A DNA stretch of 64,000 nucleotides from assembly GCA_019637685.1 (NCBI GenBank), contig JAHBVF010000018.1:62001-126000 (forward strand), read 5' to 3'. This stretch comes from Caldilineaceae bacterium (GTDB taxonomy: Bacteria > Chloroflexota > Anaerolineae > Caldilineales > Caldilineaceae). The position numbers and the translations under genes are program-made. The notes under the pieces are model-generated. The model made no database searches. It had not been told where the DNA came from and saw nothing but the letters and a program-made list of their open reading frames with translations. The number at the start of each line of letters is the position of its first letter. Position 1 is the first letter of the stretch. This document shows positions 3,884-17,745 of this stretch, one piece after another.

Positions 3884-4117
3884 TTTGGCACGCTCCTTGG
3901 TACAGAATATGGCACACAATGCCAGTATACACGAAAATCTAGGAAATAGACAGCAGCCATCTGCCGCAGGCAGTATAGTCAAAATCCTCAGAAGTTATAG
4001 GGGGTAGAAGCCGTCAAAGAGCAGTCGTCCGGAGAACAAAAGGCTTTCCTTCAATATGCTGCAACAGACTCAATACAACGCTACGGCGAACTAAAACTTT
4101 TATCTATCCACAGATTT

Positions 4118-4169
4118 CACAGATGACACAGATTTTCCCTGTACTTCTGTGAAATCTGTGTCATCTGTG
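4118..4169. repeat. 18-bp perfect inverted repeat (intergenic hairpin)
   Basis: CACAGATGACACAGATTT at 4118-4135 is repeated as its reverse complement at 4152-4169 with a 16-nt loop. The imperfect pairing extends further out (TATCCACAGAT on both sides). It fills most of the gap between the antitoxin start (3883) and the RraA-like gene (4222). The rest of that gap shows nothing I can name; a promoter for the + strand gene is not obvious. Confidence 0.7.
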
Positions 4170-9340: not shown

Positions 9341-9354
9341 TGCTGCGTAAGGCG

Positions 9355-9405
9355 TGCTGCGTGCTGCGTGAGATCAGGTCGTGTGATCTCACGCAGCACG
9401 CAGCA
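9355..9405. repeat. 22-bp perfect hairpin between convergent genes
   Basis: The arms at 9355-9376 and 9384-9405 (starting TGCTGCGTGCTGCGTG) are perfect reverse complements with a 7-nt loop. It sits between the stop of the permease and the stop of the convergent dehydratase, where a bidirectional terminator would be expected, but there is no T-run. A close relative is at 24547-24603. Confidence 0.85.
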
Positions 9406-15193: not shown

Positions 15194-16375
15194 ATGACAA
15201 CCAATGACAACTGGCGGATGGAGACCGTCGCCATCCACGCCGGCAAAGAGATCGACCCCACTACCGGCGCGGTGATGCCGCCCCTGCACCTTTCCACCAC
15301 CTACGAACGCAAGGCCGACGGCTCCTATCACAACGGCTTTATGTACATTCGCGGGGACAACCCCACCCGGCGCTCTCTGGAAGACGCGCTCTGTGCGCTG
15401 GAAGGGGGCATCTGCGCGGCCACCTTTGCGTCAGGAATGGCCGCGATTATGACCGTCTTTCAGGCCCTGCGCCCCGGCGATCACGTGCTGATCCCCGACG
15501 ACATCTACTTTGGCACAAAAGTGATGATTGCAGAGCTTTTCACCCCCTGGGGGCTGAGCAGCGAAGCGGTGGATATGACCGATCTGGACGCGGTGCGGGC
15601 GGCTATGCGTCCCAACACCAGAATGCTCTGGATCGAGACGCCGTCCAATCCCCTGCTCAAAATCACAGACATTGCAGCAGTGGCGGAGATTGCCCACGAA
15701 GCCGGCGCGATTCTGGTCTGTGACAGCACCTGGCCTTCCCCCGCGCTGCAACGCACGCTGGAACTGGGCGCGGACCTCTCCGTCCACGCCACCACCAAAT
15801 ATCTGGGCGGCCACAGCGATATGCTGGGCGGCGCGGTGATCGCCAAGGAAAACAGCCCCTTTTTCGATTCTGTACGGATGATCCAGCAGAATGGCGGCGC
15901 GGTCCCTTCGCCTTTTGACTGCTGGCTGCTGTTGCGGGGTATCCGCACACTGCCCTATCGCATGCGCGGCCACTGTGAAAACGCGCAACGGGTGGCGGAC
16001 TATCTGTCCCACCACCCGAAGATCGAAAAAGTGTATTATCCCGGCCTGGCCAGCCACCCCGGCCACGCCATCGCCGCCCGCCAGATGTCCGGCTTCGGCG
16101 GGATGCTCTCCATCGGGCTGGCCCCGGACAGCCTGCACACGGGCGAGCAGAACGCCCGACGCATGGCCAACCGCACAAAGCTCTTTGTCCAGGCCACCAG
16201 TCTGGGCGGCGTGGAAAGCCTCATCGAACACCGGGCCTCCATCGAAGGGGCGGTAACCAACGCGCCAGCCAATCTTCTGCGTCTCTCCGTCGGTCTGGAA
16301 CACCCGGACGATATTATCGCCGATCTGGAACAGGCGTTGTCGGATGAGGTAACGTTGGAGCGTTTGAGCGTTTGA
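15194..16375 (+). CDS. Cys/Met-metabolism PLP enzyme (cystathionine gamma-synthase/lyase-like)
   Basis: A 393-residue PLP-dependent enzyme of the trans-sulfuration family. It shows AVMPPLHLSTTYERKADG, MYIRGDNPTRRSLEDAL, TFASGMAAIMTVFQALRPGD (cofactor phosphate), DIYFGTKVMI with the stacking Tyr, and SVHATTKYLGGHSDMLGGAV with the PLP lysine. The usual DNTFATP stretch is DSTWPSP here. The family includes cystathionine gamma-synthase, cystathionine lyases and methionine gamma-lyase; these cannot be told apart safely. The last residues (ERLSV) are encoded by the start of the repeat array that flanks the next gene, so the C-terminus may have been altered by that repeat. Confidence 0.85.
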   Translation: MTTNDNWRMETVAIHAGKEIDPTTGAVMPPLHLSTTYERKADGSYHNGFMYIRGDNPTRRSLEDALCALEGGICAATFASGMAAIMTVFQALRPGDHVLIPDDIYFGTKVMIAELFTPWGLSSEAVDMTDLDAVRAAMRPNTRMLWIETPSNPLLKITDIAAVAEIAHEAGAILVCDSTWPSPALQRTLELGADLSVHATTKYLGGHSDMLGGAVIAKENSPFFDSVRMIQQNGGAVPSPFDCWLLLRGIRTLPYRMRGHCENAQRVADYLSHHPKIEKVYYPGLASHPGHAIAARQMSGFGGMLSIGLAPDSLHTGEQNARRMANRTKLFVQATSLGGVESLIEHRASIEGAVTNAPANLLRLSVGLEHPDDIIADLEQALSDEVTLERLSV

Positions 16376-16446
16376 GCGTTTGAACGGTGGAGCGTTTGAG
16401 CGTTGGAGCGTTTGAGCGTTTGAGCGGTGGAGCGGTGGAGTAGAGG
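16354..16446. repeat. Left inverted-repeat array (GAGCGTTT/GAGCGGTG units)
   Basis: Tandem 8-bp units GAGCGTTT, GAGCGTTG and GAGCGGTG run from the 3' end of the previous gene to just before the four-helix-bundle gene. The stretch at 16416-16440 is present as an exact 25-bp reverse complement at 16850-16874 on the other side of that gene. Confidence 0.85.
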
Positions 16447-16452
16447 AGCCGA

Positions 16453-16827
16453 GTGGTGGATCAACATCAGGCTTTGCGAGACCGCACGAGGCGGTTTGCC
16501 AGTCGCATTATCAAGCTGTATGCCTATCTCCAGCAGCAATATCATTACAACGACGCGGCCCTGGTGATTGGCAAACAACTGTTGAGATCGGGTACTGGCT
16601 GTGCTGCCAACCACCGGGAGGCCAAGCACTCACGCAGCCGGGCGGATCGGATCGCCAAGTTCTATATCGTCGTCCAGGAACTGGAAGAAAGTGCTCTCTG
16701 GCTTGAACTGCTACGTGAACACGAAATGGCCCACGTTGAGGGAATCGATCAACTGCTCGACGAAACCAACCAGATGATCAGCATATTTATTGCCAGCATC
16801 AATACCCTGCGCAGCACAAATTCTTGA
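16453..16827 (+). CDS. Four-helix-bundle protein (S23/IVS-encoded type)
   Basis: A 124-residue all-helical protein with QLLRSGTGCAANHREAKHSR, the hallmark of the 23S rRNA intervening-sequence (S23) four-helix-bundle family, and a Glu-rich helix EELEES-like segment near residue 77. Members encoded inside 23S rRNA IVSs are known, and relatives (Avd) assist diversity-generating retroelements, but free-standing copies have no known role. GTG codons at 16453 and 16456 both follow AGAGGAG. The gene is enclosed by inverted repeat arrays that touch both neighbouring genes, so it looks like an inserted cassette rather than part of an operon. Confidence 0.8.
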   Translation: MVDQHQALRDRTRRFASRIIKLYAYLQQQYHYNDAALVIGKQLLRSGTGCAANHREAKHSRSRADRIAKFYIVVQELEESALWLELLREHEMAHVEGIDQLLDETNQMISIFIASINTLRSTNS

Positions 16828-16837
16828 CTCGACGCCT

Positions 16838-16908
16838 ACCGCTCAAACGCTCCACCGCTCCACCGCTCAAACGCTCCTGCGCTCCTGCGCTCCTGCGCTC
16901 CTGCGCGC
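16838..16908. repeat. Right inverted-repeat array
   Basis: CTCAAACGCTCC and CACCGCTC units (the inverse of the left array) are followed by four GCTCCTGC units, ending at the stop of the minus-strand aldolase gene. It contains the reverse complement (16850-16874) of 16416-16440. Confidence 0.85.
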
Positions 16909-17631
16909 CTACGACTGAAAAATCGTCACGCCCAAATCCCGATATTTCTGCCGCTCTTCCGGTTTGGTTCCTGTGCCCATGGCGATGTGTACCCCCGTGC
17001 CCGCCAGTTGATCCCGCACGCTGGCCATGCACTCTTCCACTGTCTGCAAAGGGAAGTGGGGGTGCAGTTCCATACTGAATTGCAGATCGTTCGGCCCAAA
17101 AGTGACATGGGTGATGCCCGGTCGCAGCAGCCGCCCGATGTTCGTCACCGTCTGCACAGATTCGATCTGAATGCTCAGCAGGACAGTGTTGTTCCACCAG
17201 GCCGCGTATTCCAGCCGGGAAGAGGGCGCTTCTTTGGAGCGCACGCCCAGCCGGTTGGCCCCGCCCCAACTGCGCCGCCCAACAGTGCCATAATAGGCAT
17301 AGTCGATGGCGTCGTCCACACTGTACTGCTCCATCACCTCTGGAACCAGACAGCCCGTCGGCCCCAGATCGAAGAAGCGGCCCACTTTGTGCGCATCCCG
17401 GGTGTGGGGGATGCGCAACTGGACGGGAATGCCCAATTCCTCGGCTGCACCGGTAAAGGCCACCAGCAGGTGATCGCTGTAGGCCGAGTGCTGGCTGTCC
17501 AGCCAGATGAAATCGCAGTCAGCTTTGGCCCAGTTCGCGGCCAGTTCCTCTTTGCTCCACTCGATGTTGGAACGCAGGGCAACCACCTCTTCGCCCGCCT
17601 GAATACGCGCCCGTAAATTCTTTGCTGCCAT
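16909..17631 (-). CDS. HpcH/HpaI-type aldolase
   Basis: A 240-residue class II aldolase-like barrel: DFIWLDSQHSAYSDHLL carries the active-site His, QLRIPHTRDAHKV the Arg that binds the oxoacid, LLSIQIESVQTVTNI the Glu metal ligand, and VTFGPNDLQFSMEL the Asp ligand. This matches 2-keto-3-deoxy-sugar-acid and 4-hydroxy-2-oxoheptanedioate aldolases, which release pyruvate. DSQH replaces the more usual DxEH. The start at 17631 has AAGGA upstream; the frame beyond lies in repeat DNA. Such aldolases would act after dehydratases like the one at 9413. Its final codons border the inverted repeat array. Confidence 0.8.
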   Translation of the reverse strand: MAAKNLRARIQAGEEVVALRSNIEWSKEELAANWAKADCDFIWLDSQHSAYSDHLLVAFTGAAEELGIPVQLRIPHTRDAHKVGRFFDLGPTGCLVPEVMEQYSVDDAIDYAYYGTVGRRSWGGANRLGVRSKEAPSSRLEYAAWWNNTVLLSIQIESVQTVTNIGRLLRPGITHVTFGPNDLQFSMELHPHFPLQTVEECMASVRDQLAGTGVHIAMGTGTKPEERQKYRDLGVTIFQS

Positions 17632-17686
17632 TTTTCTAGTCCTTGTCTGGTTGTGTTGGGTAAAAATGCAAGACGAAGCGTAGTGC

Positions 17687-17714
17687 GTAGTGCGTGTACT
17701 GGTACACGCACTAC
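17687..17714. repeat. 13-bp perfect hairpin (GTAGTGCGTGTAC)
   Basis: GTAGTGCGTGTAC at 17687-17699 pairs perfectly with 17702-17714, and weaker pairing continues outwards through CGTAGTGC and GCACCACG words. It lies between two minus-strand genes (stop at 17746, start at 17631). It is a looser relative of the hairpins at 9355 and 24547. Confidence 0.65.
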
Positions 17715-17745
17715 GTTCCACGCACCACGAAAAAATTCCCCGAAA

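Follow-up and report, generated by a model that had tools for sequence, protein, structure and literature searches.

The window, a 64,000-nucleotide stretch of a Caldilineaceae contig (JAHBVF010000018.1, positions 62,001 to 126,000), contains a small gene enclosed by two arrays of short tandem repeats in opposite orientation. The gene (16453..16827, + strand) encodes a 124-amino-acid IVP/S23 four-helix-bundle protein that exceeds the curated cut-offs of both PF05635 (E = 3.6e-11, 43.7 bits vs a cut-off of 33.8) and TIGR02436 (E = 2.4e-17, 63.1 bits vs 24), and this family (PF05635) is the sole profile match within the element. The AlphaFold model is a predicted four-helix bundle with a pLDDT of 94; its best PDB matches in Foldseek are 2rld (TM about 0.8-0.9) and 2gsc, and Avd is also matched (4dwl, 8ub7). 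The gene has a G+C content of 0.53, compared with 0.60 for the whole window.

The left array (16353..16440, + strand) comprises 11 tandem 8-bp units with the consensus GAGCGTTT/GAGCGGTG and the variants CGTTTGAG, CGTTGGAG, and CGGTGGAG. The right array (16838..16910, - strand) comprises about nine inverted 8-bp units that read ACCGCTCA/CGCTCCTG on the + strand, with outer units drifting to GAGCGCAG. The original prediction had described this arrangement, including an exact 25-bp inverted match, and both were borne out by TRF, a repeat search, and a listing of the units, with the two halves of the exact repeat at 16416..16440 (+ strand) and 16850..16874 (- strand). The flanks of the gene have a complementarity score of 67; when the same geometry was placed at random 2,875 times across the window, the highest score was 28. 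The RNA of the element has a strong predicted fold (z = -6.15).

Both arrays reach the stop codons of the host neighbors, as had also been proposed. The upstream gene (15194..16375, + strand) encodes a cystathionine gamma-synthase-like enzyme whose last codons lie inside the left array (...LERLSV*), and orthologs of this enzyme that have no element at the window site stop earlier, with (V)GLE* in two of three. The downstream gene (16909..17721, - strand) encodes an HpcH/HpaI aldolase-like protein and has its stop at the right array. Within the genome, the repeat unit is essentially limited to this locus, with one short relative at C20:13656. The window also holds two hairpins of inverted arrays that enclose no gene, with no strand assigned to either. 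The first, at 9341..9405, has the unit CGTGCTG, the same as an IVP element elsewhere in the genome (G000:C48), and the second, at 4109..4169, has a unit of about CACAGATTT, for which there is no matching IVP element among those sampled.

The association between IVP genes and inverted arrays is evidently general and extends far beyond the single locus originally described. The host genome (G000, 6.3 Mb) contains about eleven IVP genes, most of them between inverted short-repeat arrays, with units that differ from locus to locus, including GGGAATTA, TGACAGGA, GTTGATTG, CGTGAAA, GAGCGTTT, and others. Flanks were scored for 81 IVP genes, each with as much as 20 kb of surrounding sequence, in 17 Anaerolineae genomes, and compared with 545 other genes from the same stretches and with random placements; the genomes compared are mostly metagenome-assembled. 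A complementarity score of at least 30 was reached by 66 of the 81 IVP loci (81%) vs 12 of the 545 other genes (2%), and a score of at least 33 by 56/81 vs 9/545 (odds ratio 133, p = 2.5e-50). Arms are undetectable at about 15-20% of IVP loci. The element is about 540 bp long (interquartile range 484-594), and the upstream arm, read on the gene strand, is richer in G than in C in 72 of 78 cases. The IVP genes at L081 (G006:C54, 2594-12600) and L101 (G002:C255, 9543-10560) are surrounded by inverted 7-bp arrays in unusually dense or long clusters.

Plasmid copies from other phyla, sampled by tblastn rather than collected exhaustively, have the same architecture. In one set, 12 of 14 copies score above the 95th percentile of the controls, 10 of these above the 99th, and in a second set 8 of 10 score above the 99th percentile. 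Together, arms are present in 20 of 24 plasmid copies, from Cyanobacteria, Gemmatimonadota, Proteobacteria (Azospirillum), and Chloroflexota. A Bacteroidota copy put through the same flank test had no complementary flanks.

The sequence of the repeat unit is tied to the type of protein. Across 50 independent sites, protein similarity correlates with unit similarity (Mantel r = 0.37, null standard deviation 0.03, p ≤ 0.0005), and the correlation persists when only pairs between families or phyla are used (r = 0.29, p ≤ 0.0005) and when only cross-phylum pairs are used with permutation within phyla (r = 0.20, p ≤ 0.0005). Similar IVPs at unrelated sites tend to share both unit sequence and period. 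Arms of TGACAGG occur at six non-orthologous loci in three genera and two families, CGTRNNN arms in three families, GGGTGTA arms in one Caldilineaceae genome and one Calothrix plasmid, and GATTTTAG arms on one Gloeocapsa and one Chlorohelix plasmid. There is thus good support for the view that protein type predicts the repeat unit, with a pairing loose enough for some proteins of fair similarity to differ in unit (L230/L231) and an IVP tree built from few alignment columns. Since neutral DNA would be unrecognizable at 60-70% protein identity, the unit has presumably been kept by selection, and the simplest reason would be that the protein recognizes it, although the correlation could stem partly from joint transmission rather than recognition. 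The 3′ end of the window enzyme and the site of locus L005 hinted that units might be copied from the host target site; as a general rule this was dropped, since the unit goes with the type of protein at different sites and in different phyla.

The two arms of an element resemble each other more than they resemble the arms of its orthologs. Among orthologous insertions with more than 15% difference between their IVPs, the arm match is 38.6 within a locus vs 28.4 between orthologs (p = 1.7e-4, n = 24), a test from which the inverted orthologs of the window element were left out because their host flanks match. Left and right arms therefore appear, on clear comparative evidence, to evolve in concert, and the number of units varies between orthologs.

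Arrays without a gene are common. In 1.25 Mb of sequence from relatives, 199 inverted array pairs were catalogued, of which 67 surround an IVP gene, and many of the remainder are hairpins with loops of 4-30 bp. The units of these hairpins fit the arms of IVP elements in their own genome more closely than the arms found in related genomes (p = 0.001) or in other groups (p = 5e-7). Other gene-less hairpins have units that match none of the sampled IVP elements.

Near-identical copies at non-orthologous sites of sister species provide good support for movement of the element, insofar as movement can be read from present-day genomes. Two copies with 91% identical IVPs and TGACAGGG arms (G002:C313 and G005:C7) lie at different sites, and in other species these sites are empty or hold an unrelated repeat or gene-less hairpins with a different unit. 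Hairpins of different units also replace one another at orthologous sites. A further copy in the host genome (L001:1380-1970, G000:C56) lies in a hybrid histidine kinase gene, within the HATPase domain, with the kinase frame open through the whole element and the IVP read in another frame, and the same site in the sister species has only a short, gene-less, in-frame hairpin. A search for a clean target-site duplication found none, and the junction at the empty site has diverged too far to be read; gene-less or empty sites also exist for L002 and L007 that are too diverged for exact junctions.

At the window site, the element has evidently flipped in place, judging by its orthologs. The gene has one orientation in G000 and G004 and the other in G001 and G006, next to the same enzyme in all four and to the same HpcH gene in all except G004, where the downstream flank differs (L058, L059, and L060 are identical to G001, G006, and G004 over the compared stretch). 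Since G000 and G001, a well-supported sister pair, have opposite orientations, parsimony requires at least two inversions. Orientation is conserved at about 17 other orthologous sites, and inversion is thus not frequent everywhere. The original prediction of a self-contained, stem-flanked unit agrees with this recurrent architecture, the differing sites, the gene-less counterparts, and the flip in place. Of the picture that had been set against it, a single stable copy with conserved neighbors and without arrays at homologs, only the conservation of neighbors at the window site was found; the rest fails.

Some insertions have neighbors of separate interest. At the site of the L005 element, the sister species G002 and G001 (L206 and L208) have two small genes, which presumably resemble a DUF433/DUF5615 pair, ahead of a right-hand array in the same place. 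At L010 (G000:C36:44013) and its orthologs, the element is in frame with a downstream aminotransferase, giving an open frame of 575 amino acids, and an insertion of this type may alter the start of the aminotransferase. The L010 element lies between genes taken here to be argB-like and argD-like.

Taken together, these results make the window element a probable representative of small mobile elements, about 540 bp in length, that form a widespread class. The interpretation favored here, with a confidence somewhat above even, is a mobile IVP element with cognate repeats that spreads in the manner of RAYT/REPIN systems with no recognizable transposase. The strongest competing explanation operates at the RNA level, as a generalized intervening sequence in which the arms form a stem in the transcript, RNase III cuts it, and the IVP binds the RNA of its own stem; selection would then favor harmless insertion in transcripts, and movement would be rare and incidental. 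Intervening sequences (IVSs) of rRNA contain the same protein family in the same layout, an ORF in a stem-loop, and in Coxiella the S23 ORF of the IVS is preceded by three to four tandem heptamers (GACAGAT), variable in number (PMC4990558). The strong predicted fold of the window RNA and the L001 copy, with its open kinase frame, also fit. Taken alone, however, an RNA-level role leaves the non-orthologous copies, the unit-matched gene-less hairpins, and the in-place inversion unexplained, and some copies are antisense to operons, including nrdB/nrdA in L142 and cas2/cas1 in L234; this explanation is considered unlikely.

Less likely still is that the hairpins are independent, non-autonomous repeats moved by, for example, Y1/RAYT-type transposases, with IVPs as passengers or as domesticated repeat-binding regulators. 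Counts of IVP and Y1_Tnp genes correlate across genomes (rho 0.59), and the hairpins whose units lack any sampled IVP, as well as the replacement of hairpins by others of a different unit at orthologous sites, are what such independent repeats might produce. Passenger genes, however, should not have units that follow protein type from one family or phylum to another, and the draft genomes from which helpers were counted, which may miss genes, include 11 of 45 IVP-bearing genomes with no Y1_Tnp match and five with neither a Y1 nor a reverse transcriptase match, two of these five being less than 90% complete. A reverse transcriptase or Y1 transposase was accordingly rejected as a universal, obligatory helper because of these five genomes, and a Y1 helper could still act in many of the others.

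The least credible explanation, that ordinary tandem repeats expanded by slippage beside an unrelated gene and became inverted by chance or local duplication, accommodates the known expansion of short repeats and the differing unit numbers of orthologs but is refuted for the examined set by the other-gene control (66/81 vs 12/545 with complementary flanks, or 81% vs 2%), and units that follow protein type and similar loci in other phyla also argue against it.

The original prediction had also mentioned links to retroelements, for Avd, and to 23S rRNA, for S23-type proteins. No RVT_1 reverse transcriptase was detected in 22 of the 45 IVP-bearing genomes, which counts against a retroelement link, and the single RVT_1 match of the host genome is on another contig (C23), outside the element. 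Rfam families, those of rRNA included, had no match in the window or at twelve further loci with IVP genes, and a link to 23S rRNA was likewise not seen.

Copies also occur in the neighborhood of defense genes. Of the 24 plasmid loci, nine are within cas operons or other defense-like operons on plasmids of cyanobacteria and Chlorohelix, in some cases in antisense orientation; these comprise cas operons (L143, L145, L151, L229, and L234) and methylase/helicase or HEPN operons (L228, L230, L231, and L232). Either an insertion bias or a shared plasmid context could account for this placement. A role as a component of a defense system was rejected, as PADLOC gave no match for five IVPs and most copies in defense operons carry arrays. 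No IVP relatives were found in phage records. IVP genes listed between cas genes have previously been read as possible CRISPR functions (PMC3936711), whereas most copies examined here have inverted arrays and look like insertions.

Several known systems share some of these features. The protein belongs to PF05635/TIGR02436 IVP (S23) by profile scores and predicted four-helix fold, as do the proteins of the 23S rRNA IVSs of Leptospira and Coxiella, in which the ORF likewise lies in a stem-loop of terminal inverted repeats, preceded in Coxiella by tandem heptamers, as here (PMC4990558). In contrast to those IVSs, the copies described here are in and between protein-coding genes, with none seen in rRNA and only protein genes next to the window element, and they have clade-specific 7-8 bp arrays, gene-less hairpins, in-place inversion, and spread over multiple sites. 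REPIN-RAYT systems (Bertels and Rainey 2011, PMC3116915) similarly combine inverted-repeat hairpins, a cognate protein gene, and many gene-less, non-autonomous copies that share repeats with the protein locus, as found here. Unlike RAYTs, the element encodes only an IVP, a four-helix bundle for which no catalytic site is known, in place of a Y1/HUH tyrosine transposase, its arms are tandem arrays, and its gene is inside the hairpin. Insertion sequences and MITEs are defined by a transposase, fixed terminal inverted repeats, and target-site duplication, and the element departs from them, with variable arrays as termini. Avd of diversity-generating retroelements (DGRs) has the same fold (Foldseek 4dwl and 8ub7). 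DGRs combine a reverse transcriptase with template and variable repeats; the element has no reverse transcriptase, and RVT_1 matches are not required genome-wide.

The dispersed 7-8 bp arrays catalogued in the 1.25 Mb of relatives are the same kind of repeat as cyanobacterial STRRs, the heptamer arrays of Xanthomonas (GGGAATC) and Nostoc (GGGGA(C/T)T; PMC4692102), and the TAACTGA repeats (PMC4679880), all of them short tandem heptamers. Convergent heptamer pairs number about 70 per Xanthomonas genome, and no general association of heptamer repeats with mobile elements is reported (PMC4692102). The passages on these repeats in both papers make no link to IVP genes (PMC4692102, PMC4679880).

A possible mechanism would begin with an IVP oligomer binding arrays of its cognate unit, probably on a folded hairpin or cruciform. 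An IVP relative from Xanthomonas is a pentamer in its solved structure (PMC4990558), and in a DGR the homing target requires a DNA hairpin or cruciform (PMC3240598), which, given the fold shared with Avd, makes it plausible that proteins of this fold bind hairpins. Bound IVP might then let the host replication or repair machinery, or some helper, copy the element to new sites, and by acting in trans it would allow gene-less hairpins to be copied as well. The element could be flipped, and its arms kept alike, by recombination between them or by a template switch from one inverted arm to the other, and slippage would change the number of units. We infer both the binding of cognate repeats and the chemistry of movement in this scheme. 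More broadly, the chances appear evenly balanced that IVPs, as oligomeric four-helix bundles, recognize clade-specific 7-8 bp repeats and mobilize the hairpins made of them, gene-less ones among them, as the core of a transposase-less mobile class in multiple phyla, with the cyanobacterial and Xanthomonas repeats and the rRNA IVSs as its products.

The protein family, the rRNA IVSs, the heptamer repeats, and the IVP genes in cas loci (PMC3936711) were each known separately. In the open-access literature, no report linking short repeats to IVP genes was found. The finding suggests a mobile element that spreads with no recognizable transposase, and it offers an origin for the short tandem-repeat arrays known for decades in cyanobacteria and other bacteria. 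IVP genes in cas operons can be reinterpreted as likely insertions, and the loci described here constitute a ready-made set of protein-repeat specificity pairs. For a common bacterial family listed as "function unknown" since the 1990s, these results point to a possible role and, in the cognate repeat, to a partner that can be tested.
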